Source: Richelia sp. CSU_2_1 (GTDB lineage: Bacteria; Cyanobacteriota; Cyanobacteriia; Cyanobacteriales; Microcoleaceae). From it: DNA of 64,000 bases. This document shows, in pieces, positions 7,038-49,097 of the stretch. The stretch's first letter is position 1; every line of letters starts with the position of its first letter. The position numbers were made by a program, and so were the translations under genes. The stretch is taken from positions 1 to 64,000 of the forward strand of contig JAAUPF010000008.1 in NCBI GenBank assembly GCA_012034575.1. Reading direction: 5' to 3'. The notes under the pieces were generated by a model. It made no database searches and was not told the DNA's origin. It was given only the letters and a program-made list of their open reading frames with translations.

Positions 7038-7150
7038 GGCTTGCTGAATCAGTCTTTTAGTGGGGTTAGGGAACAGGGTTCGAGGCAACAGGGCTCGAGG
7101 CAACAGGCAACAGGCAACAGTTTTACCAATTACCAATTACCAATTACCAA

Positions 7151-33127: not shown

Positions 33128-33268
33128 ATGTCGCAAGTCTATGGGCCAGATAATTTTGAGGAACCTGTTCGCCAACTCCCACCTATCAGAATACAGGATA
33201 TCTCTGCAGGTTCGATCTCGTCTTTGACACTCGGTGACATACTCCCACGTCAAGCGAGTACGCTATGA
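33128..33268 (+). other. Possible short reading frame cut by a TnpB element
   Basis: An open frame of 46 codons starts MSQVYGPDNFEEPVRQLPPI and runs into the right end of the TnpB element at about 33234, after which the residues belong to the element. The host part may be the beginning of an interrupted gene or noncoding chance. No family recognised. Confidence 0.25.
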
Positions 33269-34860
33269 CGTGGGCATCTTTGCAGCCCGATGAAGGGTAT
33301 ACAAAATTTCCTTCACGGTACTGTTATCCATAGTTCCTACTACAGAAAGATTCCCGCTACGGCGTTTTATACTTGGGAAAATGTCCAACCCAAGTCTCTT
33401 TAAATTAATCGCGGCGTTAATATCGCGATCGACCATCAGAGAGTTCTGCTCATCCCAATAGTCTCGAATACTGCAATCGGTGAAAATGATTTCATTCCGA
33501 TAACACAGTACCATTGAAGTATAAGCAGGTTTTTGTGCAATAACAACTGCTCCAGCTTTTGAGGCTATGTAGTCCAGTGTCTTAAAAAATTGACCGAATG
33601 CAGCATCTAGCCAAGACTTATTCAGTCCTGATTTTGCTGATTGACCGTTGGTCAGATAAGCCCCATCATCATTTTGCTCGCTCTTATTGCGCTTAGTTAA
33701 GCCTTTAAGGTTTAGGTCTTCATGGAAGAAGAATTTAGCACCTGTTTTGACAAGTTTATGAGCAATTTTATATTGAAAATCTTGGCGAGAACGAGCAATA
33801 CGTTGATGCTGCTTGGCTTCTCTTTTTGCTAGTTTTCGCCTCGCTTTACTCCCCCGTTTCCGTTGGTTTCGTTTCTTCGAGATCCGAGCTAGTTTTGATT
33901 GATTTTTGCGTAGTGGCTTAAGTGAAGGTAGTTTATCACCTTCAGATGTTGCCAAATAGACATCTTCATGAAGCACTGCATCTAAGCCAATTGAGTTCCC
34001 CCAAGTCGGAGTAATTTCGTCAGGGGTGAATTCAGGCACCTCCAGATCTTCAAGCATTAATTGAATGAACCAACCATCAGCTTTTTTAGTAACACTAGCT
34101 TGCTTGAGGGTAAATTTATCTGGGATGGGGCGGTGCATCCGAACTTTGACAACTCCTAGTTTGGGCAATCGAATATAAATCCAGTCATTTCGACAGCATT
34201 TAATCCAATCGTTACTAGCAGTTGCAAAAGTCATCGTGCGATAGCTTGCTTTGTTTTTAAAGCGAGGTCTACCAAACTTACCACCTTTACTATCACCAAC
34301 AATAAATCGCTCAAAGGCTGTGTCTACTCGTTTGGACACGTCTTGCACAACCGTTGAATCTACTTGCTTGAAATCCAACAATTCACCACTATGAAAAACT
34401 TTTACCAAATCTTTTTTGATTGATGGTAGTGCAGCTTTTTGATTGTAATAATTAGGCTTTGGTCTGGGAGTAGCAATACTGCTTGTTAGCGGACAGGCAT
34501 CAATATCGGTACGGTTCATCTGCCACCAGTCGAAGCGATCTCCTAGCTGGCGATTATACCAATAACGGCAAATTCTCAGCCAGCGATTGAGCTGCTGTTT
34601 TTGATTGGTGTCTGGATAGAATCGATACTGATACGTTACTTTCATTGCGTTACGCTCTTGACGCTGCAAGGCAAGCGTTATTATATCGCGTTCGCCTTGC
34701 AAGTTGATTAACAATTTATTGGATCGAGAGTTTGTTCGTCTCCTCATCCACCCGTCCCCTGCTAAAGTCTACAATTTTTAGATTGCTTACGGGTGGAATC
34801 GGAGTCTCACGCGACTCTCATCCCACACTAACCGAGGCGGTATAGTGTGGGGATTCCCGT
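33234..34860 (-). mobile_element. IS200/IS605-family element carrying tnpB only
   Basis: Right end (minus strand): GCCCACGTCA loop TGACGTGGGAGTATGTCAC at 33234-33275, a strong hairpin ending GTCAC. Left-end hairpin CCCACACTA ... TAGTGTGGG at 34822-34851. Only tnpB lies between them; no tnpA, so mobility would need a TnpA elsewhere. It sits between tRNA-Arg and the MATE gene. Confidence 0.75.
33263..34645 (-). CDS. tnpB: TnpB RNA-guided nuclease-type protein
   Basis: 460 residues from ATG 34645 (MKVTYQYRFYPDTNQKQQLN). RuvC-like acidic residues are kept: Asp222 in IGLDAVLHED, Glu309 in FFHEDLNLKG and Asp near 406-408 in VDRDINAAINL. A basic helix (about residues 245-285) follows the first motif. 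The zinc-ribbon zone is unusual: only two separated Cys (about 381 and 391, in SMVLCYR and FTDCSI) instead of two CxxC pairs. TnpB proteins cut DNA guided by RNA from the element's right end and help the element persist. It may be active, but the altered ribbon makes this uncertain. Confidence 0.85.
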   Translation of the reverse strand: MKVTYQYRFYPDTNQKQQLNRWLRICRYWYNRQLGDRFDWWQMNRTDIDACPLTSSIATPRPKPNYYNQKAALPSIKKDLVKVFHSGELLDFKQVDSTVVQDVSKRVDTAFERFIVGDSKGGKFGRPRFKNKASYRTMTFATASNDWIKCCRNDWIYIRLPKLGVVKVRMHRPIPDKFTLKQASVTKKADGWFIQLMLEDLEVPEFTPDEITPTWGNSIGLDAVLHEDVYLATSEGDKLPSLKPLRKNQSKLARISKKRNQRKRGSKARRKLAKREAKQHQRIARSRQDFQYKIAHKLVKTGAKFFFHEDLNLKGLTKRNKSEQNDDGAYLTNGQSAKSGLNKSWLDAAFGQFFKTLDYIASKAGAVVIAQKPAYTSMVLCYRNEIIFTDCSIRDYWDEQNSLMVDRDINAAINLKRLGLDIFPSIKRRSGNLSVVGTMDNSTVKEILYTLHRAAKMPTS

Positions 34861-36262: not shown

Positions 36263-36691
36263 GAAGAAATTTCCTGAATTGCTGGGTAAACCGCTACTTG
36301 AGAGAATTTAGCCAGATAAAATTTTTCTGATTTTTGCGGCTTTTTCAAAATCTTGCGCATCATTTACTTTATGTAGCGAAGCTGTTTAAGAAGTAGCTAT
36401 AGCCTCTTTTGTAATAGATGAGATACACTTTGGTAATTGGTAATTGGTAATTGGTAATTGGTAATTGGTAATTGGTAATTGCTTAATATTGTACCTCACG
36501 CTTCATGATAACTGCTATGTATTGCGATCGAAAAAATCAAAATTGCGACGCAGTAGATCGCGCAACAAAATCAGAAGTTTAAATACCGATCCAAATTTTG
36601 TGAAGTTTTTGAACCGCAGATGTCGGCGGATTAACGCAGATGAACGCGGATGATGTTTTACCTGCGGTTCAAAAGTTTTGAAACAAGGATT
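36263..36691. repeat. TTGGTAA heptamers and ATCTGCG-type repeat between genes
   Basis: 36430-36481 holds seven TTGGTAA units. 36611-36673 holds GAACCGCAGATGTCGGCGGA and ACGCAGATGAACGCGGATGA, ending CCTGCGGTTC, an inverted-order copy of the ATCTGCG repeat. No gene seen in the 429 bases. Confidence 0.75.
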
Positions 36692-39307: not shown

Positions 39308-39631
39308 TTTTCTTTCTCCTCGGATGGCATTTGCTAAGTGCTGGCAAATCGGTTCATTTTTTAGCTTACGGGTTGAGGTCCGATCGGGCATAGTATACTG
39401 CCCTTATCAAAACTTAACGCAACTTCAGAAACAGTTAAGTACACAACCTATGACAGATGTTTTTTGTAGCGAGAAGCAATCCGAGCAGCTCTGTTCGAGG
39501 GCATTCTGTTGCATCCTTACGGTTAAGATTGATGTTGTAAGGGGATATGAATGCCGATCGCCCTGCATCGGAAATCCCCTGTTATCGCCAATTCAGAGTC
39601 CTTCGCTGCGGAATTATAGGAGTCCAGTTTT
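39308..39631. other. Divergent promoter region between acnB and sensor gene
   Basis: No gene seen. It separates two divergently transcribed genes and contains AT-rich GGGCATAGTATACTGCCC, a perfect palindrome near 39387-39404, which could be an operator. Confidence 0.45.
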
Positions 39632-42600
39632 GTGCAAAATCGACTGTTGCAATGGATCGATCGAAAACTTGAAAATTTTATCCCTGAAAACTGTCAGGGT
39701 TGCGGCTTTAAGCCAGAAATGCGCGAAGCCCTTGAAGAAACTAAAGAATTATTTTTAGCCTTCGCTGACTCAATGCCGGTGCCGCTGGTTGTCAGCAGTT
39801 TGGCAACGGGTACTATTCTTTACTGCAACGATTTATGCGATTTGGCTTTCGGAGTGACAGCATCCGAGTTCATCGACCGCCAACACGCTGAAACGCTGTA
39901 CAGCAATCCCGCCGATCGCCGGCAATTGCTGGAGGTTCTGGCACGCGACGGATATGTCCGCGAAGCAGAAGTTCGCCTGAAAAAGGCTGACGGTACGGAG
40001 TTTTGGGCGACTGTATCGATGCGGTATTTGACTTTGGAAGCGGAAAAAGCCGTGCTGTCTGTGTTCTGCGACATTACCGAACGCAAGCGAGCCGCAGCTT
40101 TAGAGCGAGAAATGCTGGAGTCGATCGGGCTGCGAGCTCGCCAGCAAGCTGCTGTCGCCCTTTTGGGACAGGAGGCCCTGGCCGAAACGGATTTGTCGGC
40201 GCTGATGGACAAAGCTGCAGTGTTAATTGCGAAAACGCTGGATGTCGATTACTGCCAGTTTTTGGAACTTTTGCCCTCCGGCCAGGCTTTTTTGCTGCGA
40301 TCCGGTGTCGGGTGGGAACCCGAACTCGTCGGCCGGGCTACTGTTACCGCTTCGGCTCGGTCTCAAGCGGGCTATACGCTGTTAGCGGGCGAACCGACTG
40401 TTGTTCGAGATTTGCGGGTGGAAACGCGGTTTAGCGAGTCGCCGCTGCTGCACAACCACCGGGTTGTTAGCGGTGTTACTGCGATCGTCCCTGGCAATAG
40501 AACTCAGGAAAAAAGCAATTGGGGGCAAGCAGAACCGCCCCATAATTCTCCATCTCAGTCTTCTGTGTGGGGGGTGATGGGGGTTCACACTAGCCGAGAT
40601 CGGTGTTTACATTAGATGACATTTATTTTATGGAGGCGATCGCCAATTTGTTAGCTGCGGCGATCGAGCGGATTAGATATTCGGAACGCTTGCAAATGAT
40701 GGAACGGGCGATCGAAAGCAGCAGCAATGGCATTGTGATTACCGACGCTACTGTGGCTGACAATCCGATGATTTATGTCAATCCCAGTTTTGAGCGGATT
40801 ACGGGTTATCGCCGAGACGAATTAATCGGTAAAAGTTGCCATTTTTGGCAGGGTCAAGGCACCAGCAGGGATGCTGGAGAAGAGCTGCGCAATGCTATTG
40901 AACAAGGCAGAAGCTCTCAAGTTATATTGCAGAACTTTCGGAAAGATGGCTCGCTTTTTTGGAACGAAATTTCTATTGCTCCGGTTTACAACTCGCGCCG
41001 CCATTTAACTCACTTTATTGGAGTTCAAACTGATATTACCGATCGCAAACGAGCTGAAGAAGAATTATTTTTAAAGTCTCAAGCTTTAGCAACTTTTAGT
41101 GCCAATCTCAAACACCTGCACCGAATTACAACTTATCACTATCAAAATTTTGAAGAACTGGTTGATGATTATCTGACAGCCGGCTGTTTGATTTTTGGAC
41201 TGTCGATCGGTCTCGTCGCTCAAGTAGAAAATCGATGTTGGATCGTGCGATCGGTCAAAGCTGAAACGCAAATATTTGTTAAAGGTTTAGAATTAAATCT
41301 CAACGATACTTACTGCGCGGCGGCCATCGACTCAAGAAAAACCATAGCTTGCTCTCATATTGCCAAATCGAGTTTGATGGGAGAAAAACAAACTTATAAA
41401 ATTTTTGAGCTGGAATCTTATATCGGTACTCCGATATTTGTCGAACGTAAAATTTACGGCACTTTGAGTTTTTGTGCGTCAGAACCCAGGAAGAAAAAAT
41501 TTGAACCGGAAGAACTAGAAATAATTGAACTCATGGCTCAAAGCCTGGGGAAATTCCTAGCAGCTCATCAAATGGAAGTCGAACGCCAGCAAGCAGAAAA
41601 AGAGCGATCGGAGTTAATATTATCTCTGGTGGAAAGTGAGGATCGCTACCGCAGTTTGGTCGAACTGTCTCCCGAAGCGATCGCCGTTCACAGTCAAGGA
41701 AAAATTGCCTATATCAATGCCGCCGGCGCTAAACTTCTCGGTGCCAGTTCTCCAGCAGCCCTGATCGGCCTTCCAGTATTGAATTTCGTCCATCCAAACT
41801 GCGTGCAAATAGCTAAAGAGCGAATGCGAAAAGTAGAGGAAGAAAACACCCCGATCGACCTTGCTGAAGAAAAATTCATGCGGCTTGACGGACAGATAAT
41901 TGATGTTGAAGTTGCCGGCATACCCGCTACTTATCAAGGCTGTGCCGCCGCCCAAATTATTATTAGAGATGTGACGGAACGCAAGCGAGTAGAACAGCAA
42001 CTGCTGCACGACGCCTTTCACGACGCGCTGACGGGTTTGCCGAACCGCGTTTTGTTCATTGACAGGTTGGGACAAGCAATCCGCCGATCGAAAAATTCCT
42101 GCGATTACAAATTTGCCGTACTTTTCCTCGATTTAGACCGCTTTAAAGTAGTTAACGATTCTCTCGGACACATTCTCGGCGACAAATTGCTAGTGGCGAT
42201 TTCTGCGCGGCTGCAAGCGTGCGTGCGGGCTTCCGATACTGTGGCGCGACTGGGGGGGAGATGAATTCACCATCCTGCTAGACAATATTCAAAACGTGGG
42301 AGACGCTACCCTGGCAGCTAACAGAATCCAAAAAGAACTGACTTTGCCGTTCAATCTTGAAGGCCACGAAGTCTTTACTACGGCCAGCATTGGCATTGTT
42401 TTTAGCAGGGATGAGGCAACAGCAAACAACAGCTTGAATTGCTTGCAATGTTCCGCACAACTTCACCCCGAAGAATTGCTGCGGGATGCTGATATTGCCA
42501 TGTACCGCGCTAAAGCTTTGGGAAAAGCCCGCTACGAGGTGTTTAATTTGGCAATGCACGACCAAACTCTGTCGCTGTTGCAGTTAGAAAACGACCTGCG

Positions 42601-43693
42601 GCTGGCTATTTTGGGAAAAGATGAATTGGAGAAAAATAAGGAGGAACTTTCGCATTTTGTCTTGCACTATCAACCAATTGTTTCGATCGCAGATGGCTCG
42701 ATCGAGGGTTTTGAAGCTTTGGTGCGCTGGCATCACCCGGTGCGGGGTTTAGTGCCTCCATCTAGTTTTATTCCTGTCGCTGAAGAAACGGGTTTGATCG
42801 TGCCTCTGGGAACTTGGGTACTGCGGGAAGCTTGCCGCCAATTGCGCGCTTGGCAAGAACTTTTAATGAAGGCAGAAGGAAGAGGGAAGAAGGAAGAAGG
42901 AAGAGGGAAGAGGGAAGAAGGAAGAGGGAAGAGGGAAGAAGGAAGATGGAAGAATGAAGAGGGAACAGGGAACAGGGAAGATAAGGAAGAAGGAGGAGGG
43001 GAGACAGTAGAAAACGGAGATGTTTCGATCGATCCCAATTCCCCATTACCAATTACCAATTCCCAATTCCCCATTACCAATTCCCCATTACCAATTACCA
43101 ATTCCCCATTGCCAATTCCCAATTCCCAATTTCCAATTTCCAATTCCCCATTAACAATGAGTGTCAATCTTTCAGCAAAACAACTAGGTCAACCGAATTT
43201 GATCGAGTTAATCGATAAAATTTTGGCAGAAACAGGCTGCGATCCGGCTTGTTTAAAATTGGAAATTACTGAAAGCGCGATCGTGGAAAATGTGAAGAAA
43301 GCTAATACGGTACTCGCTGAATTAAAAGCAAGAAATATTCGGCTGTCGATCGACGATTTCGGTACTGGTTATTCGTCTTTAAGTTATTTGCACCGCTTTC
43401 CCCTGGATACGTTGAAGATCGATCGCTCTTTTGTCAGCCGTTTGGGGACAAAAGAAAGCAGCGACGGCGGCGGACAACCTTTGCAAATTGTGCGGGCGAT
43501 CGTGACTTTGGCGCGCAATTTGGGCTTGGAAGCGATCGCCGAAGGTGTAGAAACTGTCGAACAGTTAGAACAGCTTCGAGAACTCGAGTGCGATCGGGCT
43601 CAGGGATATTTGTTTTCTAAACCTTTGGATAGTGCGGCGATCTCTGAACTTTTACAACGGGCGATCGATAGTCAGTTGACAGTTGACAGTTGA
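39632..43693 (+). pseudogene. PAS-GAF-PAS-GAF-PAS-GGDEF-EAL cyclic-di-GMP protein, two frame breaks
   Basis: From GTG 39632: a PAS domain ending DITERKRAA, a GAF domain, a second PAS (ESSSNGIVITDATVADNPMI), a second GAF, a third PAS and then GGDEF and EAL domains. Break 1 is near 40600: HTSRDR must join VFTLDDIYFMEAIANLL by one added base. Break 2 is in a G7 run (42252-42258) inside the GGDEF motif; with G6 the frame reads [15 protein letters not shown] residues are intact ([32 protein letters not shown]), interrupted by a 95-residue heptamer-encoded insert. If functional, it would make and/or break cyclic-di-GMP in response to a ligand or light. Confidence 0.85.
42869..43156 (+). repeat. Two heptamer tracts encoding an insert in the EAL domain
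   Basis: 42869-42990: GGAAGAR heptamers encoding EEGRGKR-like 7-residue units. 43041-43156: CCAATTC/CCATTAC heptamers encoding [14 protein letters not shown] units. Three heptamers make 7 codons, so the frame survives only with suitable totals. The insert falls between the helix WQELLMK and the strand SVNLSAK. Confidence 0.9.
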
Positions 43694-44010
43694 CAGTTGA
43701 CAGTTGGTAGGTTGGGTTGAACAAGCGTAAATTCTCCGCTTTGCTTCGCCCAAAGTCCGTCATTTTAGATGTAAATAATTTGGTTTTCCATATAGACATG
43801 AATAAATATTTCACTCATTGGTTTTTGACTCGCGGATCGATATTATTTAACCGCTCCAGAGCGCAGAGGGGGAAGAGCGAGAGAAGAGAGAGATGAATAA
43901 TTCTGATGCCATCGGATTTGGTACTATTAGTCATTAGCCAGCAGAAAAATAACGATCGACTCTCAACGATCGACTCTCAACTGTCAACTGTCAACTGTCA
44001 ACTCTCAATT
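43674..44010. repeat. TTGACAG tracts around an intergenic region
   Basis: TTGACAG units at 43677-43705 supply the final codons (SQLTVDS) and stop of the EAL gene. CAACTGT units at 43976-44005 lie at the stop of the convergent kinase. No gene between them. Confidence 0.8.
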
Positions 44011-47000
44011 AGCTTTGAGTGGAATCTCGATCGCAAATTCTGCACCGCATCCTGGCAAAGAATTGCAGTAAAGCAACCCTCCGTGCCGTTCCGTAACAAT
44101 TTGATAGCTAATTGACAGACCCATTCCAGTACCTTTACCGACGGGTTTAGTAGTGAAAAACGGGTCAAAAAGTCGAGTGCCGACACTCTCCGGTATTCCC
44201 AGACCGTTATCAGCAATCTTAATAATTACTCGCTCGGAATTTAGCATTTCAGTGCAGATTCGGATGTGGCTGGGTCGTGCCCGAATCTCTTCATTAGAAC
44301 GCCGCAAATCCCGTTCCTCCAAAGCATCCAAAGCATTGCTCAAGATATTCATAAATACTTGATTCAACTGACCTGCATAACATTCTACTAACGGCAATTG
44401 ACCGTATTCTTTAATCACCGGAATCTCGGGACGATCGTGTTTTGCTTTCAAGCGGTGCTGCAAAATCATCAAGGTACTGTCGATGCCGTCGTGAATGTTA
44501 ACTGCTTTCATTTCCGCTTCGTCCATGCGGGAAAAAGTGCGCAAAGAAGCAACAATTTGTTGAATTCTATCTGCACCGACTTTCATCGAAGCCAGCAATT
44601 TCGGCAAATCTTCCATCAAAAATTCTAGTTCAATATTTTCTATTTCCTCTTGAATTTCTGGAACTGGTTCGGGATAGTGGTCTTGGTAAAGTTCTATCAA
44701 TTTGAGCATATCTTGAGTGTATTCGTTAGCGTGGGTGAGGTTGCCGTAAATAAAATTAACTGGGTTGTTAATTTCGTGAGCGACTCCTGCCACTAACTGA
44801 CCGAGAGATGACATTTTTTCGCTTTGAATTAGCTGAGATTGAGTGCGAGTTAGTTGCTGTAAAGTTTGCTCTAATTCGCGGGCTTTGTTATCAGTTTGGG
44901 TATAAAGTTCGGCTTGATTGAGGGCGATCGCTAATTGAACTGTAATCGCTTGCAGCAATTCTACTTCGCTATCAGTCCAGGGGCGCGCGGAGTTACTATT
45001 GCTGCAACTAATCGCGCTGACTACTCCCGAAAGCGCTTGCACCGGAATTACCAGTACAGATTGACCGCCCATAGAACGAACTGTTTGCCGCCAAACAGAC
45101 TCGGAGATTTGTGCGACATCATCTACCCGCAGGATTTCCAAACGCAATAGCTGCTGTCCGAGGTGGCCGAAATCGGCAGCCGAATAGCGACCTGTTAAAT
45201 CGGGAAGTTCCCGACTGCGAGATTCTTGAATGATTTCCCAGAAAGCATCGTCTTCACTGTCGCGATACCAGGCAAAACTGCACCGATCGACCTGCATGAA
45301 AGCGCGAATTTGTTTGACGGCAACATTAATGATGCTGTCGAAATCGAGGGAATTGCGAATTTGGGCAGTCAGAATGTTGAGCAATTTTTCTCGATCGGCT
45401 TGCTGTCTGAGTCGGGCTTCCGATTCCCTCAGGGCTAATTCTCCCCGCTTGCGATCGGTCACATCTTCGGTAATAGCTAATAGGTATTGGGGATTGCCTG
45501 CTAAATCGAGAATTGCTGTTTTCTTGGTGTGAAATATGCGAGTTTCGCCTTCGCCATTTTGAATCAGTTCTTCAGGAATATCGATAATTTGCCCGCTGGC
45601 GAGCACTTCCCGATCTTTTGCGGTGAAAAAGTCGGCTTGTTCTCTGGGGAAAAAGTCATAGTCATTTTTGCCCAAAACTTCTGCTGCCCGGAAACCAAGC
45701 AACTGTTCGGCGACAGGATTCCAGAGTACAAATCGCAACTCTTCTACTTCTTTGGCAACTACTCCTACTGGTATGGTATTGAGTACCGATTCCAGGAACT
45801 TTTGAGCGTGTTGCAATTCTGTTTCTGCCTGTTTGCGATCGCTAATTTCTTGTTCTAGCTGGGCGACTGCTTGTCGCAATTCAGCAGTTCGATCGGCTAC
45901 TCTATCTTCTAACTCGGCTGCTGCTTGCCGCAGGGCTGCTTCAGCGTTTTTGCGATCGGTAATGTCCATCGCAGTACCGAATAGTTTGATTGTCTTGCCG
46001 TTCGCATCGGTTTCCACCTCGCCCAAGGAGTTGATGTGGCGCAAAGTACCGTCGGGGCGGTACAAGCGGAAGTCAAAATCGAAGGGAATGCCGAAGTCGA
46101 TCCCCCGCTGCACTTCGCCGTACCACAATTCCAGATCTTCTGGATGGATCGCGCTAGTTTGTTGTTCGCGGTTGGGCGCTGCGGGTGCCGGTTCGAGCCC
46201 GAAGATGCGGAAGAGTTCCTCAGACCAAGTGACGGTTTCTGTAGCTGGGTCGAGTTCCCAATTACCGACATGGGCGAGTCTTTGGGCTGCTTGTAGCTGT
46301 CGCTGGCTTTCGCGGATGGCGGTTTCAGCAAGTTTGCGATCGGTAATATCGAGGAGGACGCCGCAAAATACGGTTTCGCCGTTGTCGCTGGAAGTTGGCA
46401 TTGAGTTTCCTTGCCACCAGCGGATCTCACCGTCGGGCTTGATGATGCGCCCTTCGTAGTGCCAGGGGGAGAGGTTTTCGACAGCCTCAATGCCGGAAGT
46501 GATATAGCTTTCCAAATCCTCGGGATGGATGCAAGACATGAATGTATTTAAGTCTTGCATTATTTGTGCTGCTGTCACGCCGGTGATATCGAAAATGCGA
46601 TCGCTGATATAGTCAACCTGCCAAACTCCGCCCCGGCTGCAAAACTGAAACAGAGCTCCGGGAATGGTAGCCGCGATCGTCCGAAACTTGGTTTGGGTGG
46701 CGGTGAGAACTGCCAGAGTCTGCCGCAGTTCGGCGGTGCGTTCTTCGACTCTGATTTCTAGTTCTGCATTTGCCCGCTGCAATGCCTCTTCTGCTAGTTT
46801 GCGATCGGTAATGTCGCGGGCGATGCCTTGAAAGCTGATAATATTGCCTCCGCCATCTTTGACCGGCGAGATGTTGCAAGTAATCCAACACCAACTGCCG
46901 TCGGCGCGTCGGGCGCGAATCTCGAGTCCTGCTTGTTGTTGTCCTGTTGTTACAATGCGATCGAGAAAAGCCCTCGTAGCGGGCAAGTCTTCTGGATGGA

Positions 47001-48564
47001 TAAATTCAGCAAAGGATTTACCTGGGATTTCTGAGAAGTTGTGTCCGAATAAATCCGTCCATTTGGGAGAAACGTAGGTGAATGTTTCTGTTGGGGAATG
47101 TTCGTAAATTAAGTCGTTGGCGTTTTCGACAAAGTGGCGAAATTTAGCTTCGCTCTCTTGCAGGGCTGCTTCTGCTAATTTGCGATCGGTAATGTCGGTA
47201 GCTGTACCTGTAGTGCCGGTGATATTTCCGGTTTCGTCGTACAGGGCGATCGCGTTGAACATCAGATATTTGAAGCTGCCATCTTTGGCGATTTGCACGC
47301 TTTCGTGCTGGAAAACCGATTCTCCAACCAGCAAGCGGGAAAAAACTTTTACATCTTTCTCCATTTGTTCGGGAGTTATAAAGTCGGAGAAAGGTCGCCC
47401 GATCATTTCTTCTGGTTCGTAACCGTAGATGCGTTTGACTGCTGGGTTAACGAAACTGTAACGTCCCGAAGTATCGACCGACCAAATCATGTCTTGAGAG
47501 GTTTCTACCAAGCTGCGGTATTTGGTTTCGCTGGCTTTGACGGCTTCTTCTGCTTGCTTGCGTTCCGTCATGTCGCGGGAAACGCCGACTGTCATCACGA
47601 CTTGACCGTCTTCGTTGCGGATGGGTGTTTTGACGGTGCTGAAAAGTCGCACTTCTCCGTCGTAGCGCGCGGCTGGTTCTTCGGCAATTTGCAGGGTTTG
47701 CCCGGTTTCAAATACAAAGGCGTCATCTCTGACGTACTGGAGGGTGTAGTCGGGATGGGCGAAAGGCGCGTCTACAATTCCTTTGAGTTCCTCTTGACTC
47801 ATGCCGTAATAGTCGCGAAATGCTTGATTCGCCCAGACGATTTTCGATTCCGGACCTTTGACCAATACCATGTCGGCGATCGAGTCGAGTATTTGGTGGT
47901 ATTTTTTTTCGCTTTCGCGCAGTTGCTGCTGGGCGAGTTCGATTTCTGCAAGCTGTCTCTGGGTTTGCAGGTGCAGTTCGGCTTGGTAGATGGCGACTGC
48001 TAAGTGATCCCCGACTTGTCTGGCAAATTCGATTTCGTCTTCTTGCCAATCGCGCGGTTGACCGCACTGATGGATGCACAGCAATCCCCACAGGTGTTGC
48101 CCTTGCAGCAGGGGTACGACTAAGTTAGCTCGGATTTGAAATCGCTTGAGAATTTTTAGGTGGCACGGGCTCAACCGGGCTTTGTAGATGTCGCTGACGG
48201 ATTGAACGTAACCTTTAGCGTAGTTGGCTGCAAATTGTTCGCCGAAACAATGGTCGTGAACTTTTGTTCCTAGAGATGGGCTGTATTGGGGCAGCACGTC
48301 TTCTGATACTACTTCGCCGTCGTTCCATTCGGACTCCGGGAGGAAGCGGTAGACGGCGACTCGATCGGCATTTAAAAGTTGCCTGACTTCGGTGGCTGTG
48401 ATTTTAAATATTGTTTCTAGGTCTAGGGATTCGCGAATTTTGCTAATAACTCCCATCAAGGCTTGCAGTTTTTTGAACCAAGTTTGAGACTGCATTTCTC
48501 TTTCTAGGTGAGCTAGCTTCTGCCGGAGGTTGGTTACTTCTTGATACAGAAATTCATGAAACAT
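44005..48564 (-). CDS. Multi-PAS sensor histidine kinase with cyanobacteriochrome-like GAF
   Basis: 1519 residues. GAF1 (about 45-200) has Cys134-His135 in LSPCHLKIL, the bilin-attachment pattern, and a DHCF motif (Asp104, Cys106) 28 residues before it, the DXCF signature of cyanobacteriochromes. It also has [20 protein letters not shown] and HQCGQPRDW. Six PAS domains follow (about 222-335, 343-460, 470-590, 620-745, 755-870, 920-1040), most ending DITDRK. Then a GAF2 (1055-1220), H-box with His1263 in [12 protein letters not shown], and an ATPase with GTGMGLSI. No receiver or regulator gene is adjacent. Probably a light-responsive kinase; chromophore binding is inference. Confidence 0.92.
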
Positions 48565-49097
48565 ATGTTATTTCTTTAGTTATTTTGCGATCGGCTGTAC
48601 GGGTAAATCCCACTAATGTGATGAAACGTGATGTTATGAAACTTGACTCTAATGAATGGGAAGGACTGATGGCACTTTCTGTTCCTTTTTCTGGCACTTC
48701 TTCTGGCTCTTCGCAGCTACCCTGACCGCATATCCGTATTTTATCTTAAATTTTTGGTGATTTAAGGTGGTGGTTATTCCGTAGATTTACTTATTTGATT
48801 GAGTGCCGATCGAGCGCTTAATCAAATATCACTCTCTCGACATTTTACTAAATTTGACAATTTTTGGCGATAATATTTTGTTTTAAATATCACATTTGTG
48901 TCGCTAAAGCTTTGTAATTGGTAATTGGTAATTGGTAATTGGTAATTGGTAATTGGTAATCGATCGGGCTTGTATCTCGATTACCACCAGATGGCTGTAA
49001 TCGATCGTTCCCCTGCTTGAACTAGCTGTATGGGGAAGCGGTCGATCGACTGGATGTTTTAAATTGTAGATTAATTATCGGTGCCCGGTTCGATCGT
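48565..49097. other. Intergenic region with TTGGTAA heptamers
   Basis: No gene seen. 48913-48962 holds seven TTGGTAA units followed by a CGATCGGGCTTGTATCTC tail, which also follows the heptamers near 5650, so heptamer plus tail move together. Confidence 0.65.

Follow-up and report, generated by a model that had tools for sequence, protein, structure and literature searches.

A predicted DXCF-type cyanobacteriochrome domain heads a multi-PAS histidine kinase conserved in Microcoleus-type cyanobacteria

The window analyzed here is a 64,000-nucleotide stretch of DNA from Richelia sp. CSU_2_1 (contig JAAUPF010000008.1, positions 1 to 64,000 of the forward strand), from a genome assembly of 7.27 megabases in 370 contigs that is 86% complete and 6.6% contaminated. 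On the minus strand, the open reading frame (ORF) at 44005-48564 has an ATG start codon and encodes a protein of 1519 amino acids (aa), whose Pfam and NCBIfam domains run from a cyanobacteriochrome-type GAF domain (GAF1) through six PAS domains and a second GAF domain (GAF2) to a histidine kinase. We consider it probable that, in this filamentous cyanobacterium, GAF1 is a blue-light cyanobacteriochrome sensor of this kinase, and we expect with good confidence that the protein is an unstudied member, of an ordinary kind, of a known photoreceptor family, the DXCF cyanobacteriochromes, here driving a kinase. This assignment builds on domains, cysteines, conservation, kinase motifs and clade membership, from which bilin binding, colour and the direction of kinase control are predicted.

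GAF1 (residues 48-192, 47989-48423) matches PF01590 with 93.2 bits (cut-off 22.4), the highest score among the 112 Pfam GAF matches in its own genome. An earlier note on this DNA had proposed, from short motifs, a DXCF-type GAF at the head of a histidine kinase, and the ORF translation contains each of those motifs: Asp-His-Cys-Phe (DHCF) at residues 104-107 (48244-48255), Cys134-His135 (48160-48165), a spacing of 28 residues between Cys106 and Cys134 and, also within the GAF domain, HQCGQPR and a quoted stretch of 15 residues. In alignment, D104, C106, C134, H135 and N147 stand opposite TePixJ D492, C494, C522, H523 and N535, whose roles are described in passages of PMC6955287, so that Cys106 takes the place of the second cysteine and Cys134-His135 that of the canonical pair. 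Among the best sequence matches in the PDB were a dual sensor kinase (6oap, 1e-40), NpR6012g4 (6bhn), RcaE (8k9o, 7ckv), AnPixJg2 (3w2z) and TePixJ (3vv4). A Foldseek search with the AlphaFold model returned 6ob8/6oap, AnPixJg2 (3w2z) and TePixJ (4fof/4glq), the best 50 fold matches listed all being cyanobacteriochromes, phytochromes or proteins derived from these. GAF1 thus has the sequence marks of the DXCF class, namely a cyanobacteriochrome-type GAF, a canonical Cys followed by His and a second Cys within Asp-X-Cys-Phe.

A tree of 52 GAF domains was built from the window GAF, 6 orthologues, 13 outer relatives, 4 PDB references and 28 GAFs of the same genome, the latter drawn from its 112 matches. 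The window GAF falls in a clade of 22 rows (87/99) that carry DHCF, DYCF or DRCF together with LLC[IV]H or a sequence near it. The comparison with known cyanobacteriochromes that the earlier note had recommended, here by PDB matches, fold search and tree, thus supports the placement of GAF1 among putative DXCF domains. Two other classes were considered and rejected: GAF1 is not an insert-Cys cyanobacteriochrome, having no Cys between residues 85 and 104 and an intact DHCF, and the protein is not a phytochrome with GAF-PHY architecture, as a Pfam scan at 1e-3 returned no PHY domain. Among the papers searched, none pairs 'DHCF' with cyanobacteriochrome. The genome encodes one PF01126 (haem oxygenase) gene and three PF05996 genes, the latter a family that does not separate PcyA from other bilin reductases.

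Of the 59 genomes searched, 28 others belong to the window's own genus (Microcoleus-type), and all 28 match residues 1-222 over their full length at 85-95% identity. Outside the genus, 23 of 30 genomes have a match at 1e-40, with best identities of 42-61% among the matches listed. GAF1 sequences identical to the genus rows occur in Microcoleus, Tychonema, Lyngbya, Oscillatoriales and other cyanobacterial assemblies and metagenome-assembled genomes (MAGs). The 29 genus sequences, window included, were found by whole-protein search and not through the motif; Asp104, Cys106, Phe107, His135 and Phe142 are each present in 29/29 and Cys134 in 28/29, while the X of DXCF is His in 21, Tyr in seven and Arg in one. 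The earlier note had staked its reading on conservation of the two cysteines in orthologues, and on these counts the reading stands. With the motif kept in 29/29 genus sequences and the nearest structures being those of cyanobacteriochromes, phytochromes and their derivatives, the motif is, as judged from these comparisons, not a chance occurrence. A further set of sequences (L060-L083) is identical in GAF1 to 24 genus rows (L002-L029) and was not added to them. Outer relatives (L084-L139) were collected with patterns including HDHCFGEQ, 80 of 94 matches being kept. The 57 outer rows (56 distinct, L030 and L111 being identical; 13 of the 57 entered the tree) have Cys106 in 57/57 and DHCF in 56/57, counts that give no independent support because DHCF was itself part of the patterns used for collection.

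Conservation is unevenly spread along the protein. Mean identity to the 24 named orthologues is 92.5% for GAF1, 89.8% for the HisKA region, 81.5% for the HATPase region, 76-84% for PAS1, 2, 4, 5 and 6, and 69.8% for GAF2. Median omega values by a simple Nei-Gojobori calculation, over 22-24 pairs with the window, follow the order GAF1 (0.054), kinase (0.133), PAS1-2 (0.169), PAS4-5 (0.196), GAF2 (0.212) and PAS6 (0.215). Constraint on GAF1 exceeds that on the PAS domains and GAF2 by a factor of three to four, and GAF1 is the most protected part of the protein.

Typical DXCF GAFs, according to passages of PMC11284453, convert phycocyanobilin to phycoviolobilin and perform a blue/green cycle. By alignment with NpR6012g4 (GEF, EQF), the beta2 position that bears on photoproduct colour is residue 85 (48310-48312) and the helix position is Phe142. 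Residue 85 is Val in 28 of the genus sequences and Ile in one; among the outer rows it is Phe in 51 (the duplicate row included), Ile in three, Met in two and Val in one. Most relatives outside the genus therefore carry the beta2 Phe linked with teal photoproducts, as do the two clade members from the window's own genome (L031, L032). Residue 85 lay outside the collection patterns, but the outer sample is weighted to the DHCF clade. The teal-DXCF trait joins a beta2 Phe to a helix Phe, which together trap ring D; in GAF1 Phe142 is present and position 85 is Val. TePixJ, a blue/green photoreceptor, also has Val at the beta2 position, and a blue/green cycle is therefore predicted for GAF1. Passages of PMC5240096 report that changing the beta2 residue red-shifts photoproducts, as in UG2 Y537V and NpR6012g4 variants.

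In the cycle that we propose, phycocyanobilin would be attached to GAF1 through Cys134 and probably be converted to phycoviolobilin. In the dark state a second thioether between Cys106 and C10 would give blue absorption. Blue light would flip the 15,16 double bond and break the Cys106 bond, yielding a longer-wavelength state; the Val at position 85, shared with TePixJ, leads us to predict that this state is green. Helical linkers, followed by the PAS array and GAF2, would relay the signal to HisKA, where it would alter autophosphorylation of His1263.

Several observations weigh against the proposed reading. The 22-row clade adjoins the group with NpR6012g4, of the red/green lineage, through a joining branch of moderate support (89/90), and the tree is rooted at its midpoint and leaves the placement of TePixJ unsettled. 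Helix Phe142 is kept where TePixJ has Leu. The AlphaFold model has a mean predicted local distance difference test (pLDDT) score of 76, with blocks of 49-59 over residues 101-150, because of which its pocket geometry is unconfirmed and was not used. One genus sequence (L029, the same as L080; MAG TY_ISSM_2_bin.22, 625-1290) has Tyr at position 134 and reads DYCF and NSYH, and may represent either a bilin GAF without the canonical cysteine or a dead GAF. The position beside the red/green lineage and the conserved helix Phe would also suit a two-cysteine cyanobacteriochrome with a blue/teal or blue/orange cycle, which we regard as a serious possibility somewhat short of even. Because Phe142 is kept the photoproduct could be teal, while loss of the beta2 Phe could move it beyond green to orange; moreover, passages of PMC5240096 group the teal-DXCF GAFs with the red/green ones when naming the close relatives of the insert-Cys type. 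This alternative is opposed by the beta2 Val or Ile in 29/29 orthologues and by the Val of blue/green TePixJ.

On two other contigs of the same genome, C204 (42627-46924) and C317 (3667-5415), multi-GAF genes contain the closest paralogues of GAF1 (L031 and L032), followed by red/green-type GAFs with a beta2 Phe. Among the window GAF and 28 others aligned from this genome, 17 have Cys at the canonical bilin position.

The output end of the protein fits a histidine kinase. The kinase core (44014-44805) consists of HisKA (residues 1254-1349, 29.0 bits, cut-off 26.9) and HATPase_c (residues 1399-1517), both detected with Pfam. Its motifs, which we take to be the usual histidine kinase boxes under their familiar names, are AHEINNP (1262-1268, with His1263), an 11-residue motif (1401-1411), ADNGLG, DPFFTT and GKGTGMGLS. 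The best 19-residue Kyte-Doolittle mean is 1.84, inside GAF2, and no strongly hydrophobic helix was seen; the kinase is probably soluble. The proposal of the earlier note that a GAF domain heads a histidine kinase holds, and its count of six PAS domains agrees with six TIGR00229 S-box stretches; the note overlooked GAF2, which follows the last PAS and precedes the kinase, and six proves not to be a fixed number among orthologues. GAF2 (44920-45345, Pfam GAF) has Cys at neither bilin position in the alignment, and a bilin-binding GAF2 was rejected. The PAS domains are PAS1 (residues 226-337, 47554-47889, PF08448), PAS2 (residues 343-468, 47161-47538, TIGR00229), PAS3 (residues 467-592, 46789-47166) and, from Pfam/NCBIfam with approximate limits set by eye, PAS4 (about residues 626-747, 46324-46689), PAS5 (about 748-880, 45925-46323) and PAS6 (about 926-1047, 45424-45789).

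PAS3 is present in only two of the 25 orthologues compared, the window and L061, both of which have no PAS at the point after residue 909. Of the 24 named orthologues, 18 are without PAS3 and have after residue 909 another PAS, which shares about 25% identity with PAS3; one of these 18 (L074) is cut by its contig end. Another contig-cut sequence (L072) retains only the first 17 residues of the post-909 PAS. Three orthologues of 1393-1394 aa (L075, L077, L078) have neither and contain five PAS domains, and a MAG sequence of 1071 aa (L083) is missing the PAS3-PAS5 stretch and contains three. According to these domain scans, the PAS array is plastic, with three domains, five, or six built in two ways. 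When the PAS labels are placed on a tree built from the parts that the orthologues have in common, four changes are needed, an approximate count because L072 and L083 were labelled 'neither', and the window and L061 form one clade (100/99). The idea that PAS3 is a recent copy of another PAS in the same protein was rejected, identities over the full-length alignment being at most 32%. Its nearest other match in the genome is 54% identical (74 of 217 candidates scored), and no donor was found among those. An assembly artefact is unlikely, as a second assembly (L061) has PAS3 at 94%. Of the ORFs compared, the nearest to the kinase and GAF2 are two from the same genome (L054 and L055; kinase 66 and 64%). 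Outside the genus, five relatives (L084, L086, L093, L101, L130) have a single GAF joined directly to a kinase, and a scan of ten relatives from outside the genus, these five among them, found no PAS family at 1e-5. From this we infer a modular architecture, its middle exchanged and its two ends apparently kept.

This architecture would also allow light to be no more than a modifier of a main signal, a ligand or redox cue that the PAS domains and GAF2 would receive and the light sensor would gate. We hold this to be rather unlikely: the presence of three to six PAS domains plus GAF2 between input and output, and a PAS set that varies among close relatives while both ends stay constant, speak for it, and the fact that the PAS domains and GAF2 are the least conserved parts speaks against it. 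It could hold together with a blue-light sensing GAF1. That GAF1 is no longer a photoreceptor and serves as a structural or small-molecule sensor domain for which light is irrelevant, as loss of Cys134 in one orthologue might suggest, is highly improbable given that GAF1 is the most constrained domain and that 28/29 sequences have both cysteines.

A further cysteine, Cys163 (48076-48078), is conserved in 29/29 genus rows and 57/57 outer rows, that is 86 rows, 85 of them distinct; like residue 85, it lay outside the collection patterns. In a 53-row table (the 52 tree rows and GAF2) it is present in all 22 clade rows. Outside the clade, four rows have Cys at this position (L042, L055, L056, L058), each without Cys134, and none of the 16 non-clade rows with Cys134 and a letter at 163 has it (L048 and L052, with Cys134 and a gap at 163, were set aside). 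Counted from the motif Asp (AnPixJg2 D291), residue 163 corresponds to AnPixJg2 Ala350, a position mapped by alignment and not by structure; the AnPixJg2 numbering W289/T292/A350 comes from passages of PMC11284453, and the first two positions are Val102 and His105 in GAF1. The same passages place Ala350 at the beta face of ring D and report that Ile there supports phycoviolobilin formation in MCC3606390g2. Among the papers searched, none mentions a 'third Cys' together with cyanobacteriochrome. One may picture the clade as three-cysteine photoreceptors, in which Cys163 would act in the photocycle or in redox sensitivity by fixing ring D or forming a thiol adduct, and Microcoleus as a genus in which losing the beta2 Phe has retuned the sensor throughout, turning teal into green, with Phe85 paralogues kept in the same cell for colour comparison. 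We find this double proposal very doubtful.

If GAF1 is a blue-light sensor as proposed, every Microcoleus-type genome examined (29/29) would encode it, in a genus known from soil crusts and mats. The genus-wide natural change from beta2 Phe to Val or Ile would allow the trapped-twist model of colour to be tested on a DXCF GAF, and the question of what the PAS array does in signalling could be put to orthologues that have three, five and six PAS domains between the same ends. The conserved Cys163 would be of interest in its own right.

At the 14 flanking loci examined (of 24), a gene of the lactate/malate dehydrogenase family lies upstream in 13 and a convergent PAS/GAF/GGDEF/EAL gene downstream in 12. 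In the window, this convergent PAS-GAF-PAS-GAF-PAS-GGDEF-EAL gene (39620-43693, plus strand) is split into three overlapping frames; 12 of the 14 relatives' loci have a single long frame at this place (848-1342 aa, in most cases truncated where the locus ends), and the split may reflect either a pseudogene or an error of assembly. Inside the EAL-containing ORF, at about 42885-43105 (plus strand), is a run of short peptide repeats (EEGRGK, then PITNS). The kinase looks like an orphan because the eleven neighbouring window ORFs contain no receiver domain in Pfam, the search having covered those ORFs and not the rest of the window or genome. We suggest only tentatively a link between the kinase and the cyclic di-GMP gene on the opposite strand. 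The long stretch upstream of the kinase gene contains tandem AATTACC heptamers (48920-48954), which also occur at 161-181, 7128-7148 and 36432-36480. In strain Prado104, the dehydrogenase and kinase genes have between them an extra ORF (L061, 1676-7207; 1844 aa), which over 390 residues is 27% like the kinase. Elsewhere in the window (33266-34768, minus strand) is a TnpB-like IS605 OrfB-type transposase with a Cas12f1-like TNB domain.

Among known systems, GAF1 shares with TePixJ of Thermosynechococcus (3vv4, 4fof, 4glq, 6p58) the DXCF and CH motifs 28 residues apart, the His after Cys, the Asn (Asn147/N535) and the beta2 Val. TePixJ differs in being a chemoreceptor-type protein with DPCF, whereas the window protein has DHCF and a histidine kinase output, and in having Leu and Ile where GAF1 has Phe142 and Cys163. 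The GAF of the dual sensor histidine kinase 6oap/6oaq/6ob8 is the best PDB match by both sequence and fold and is likewise a kinase GAF, but it lacks a second Cys at that site because DQYF replaces DXCF. Compared with the teal-DXCF GAFs as passages of PMC5240096 present them, naming NpR1597g1, GAF1 is likewise a DXCF GAF near the red/green lineage with the helix Phe kept, yet its beta2 residue is Val and not Phe. NpR6012g4 (6bhn) and other red/green GAFs form the neighbouring lineage in the tree; unlike GAF1, they have no second Cys, carry Trp two residues before the Asp (Val102 in the window protein) and keep the beta2 Phe. Also related are the short GAF-kinases of strains CCP2 (L084) and RU_5_0 (L086) and L130, which share the DHCF GAF clade and a similar kinase (59-61%), with GAF identities to the window of 59-60% for the first two; in contrast to the window protein, their GAF leads directly into the kinase, with no PAS family at 1e-5 between them.

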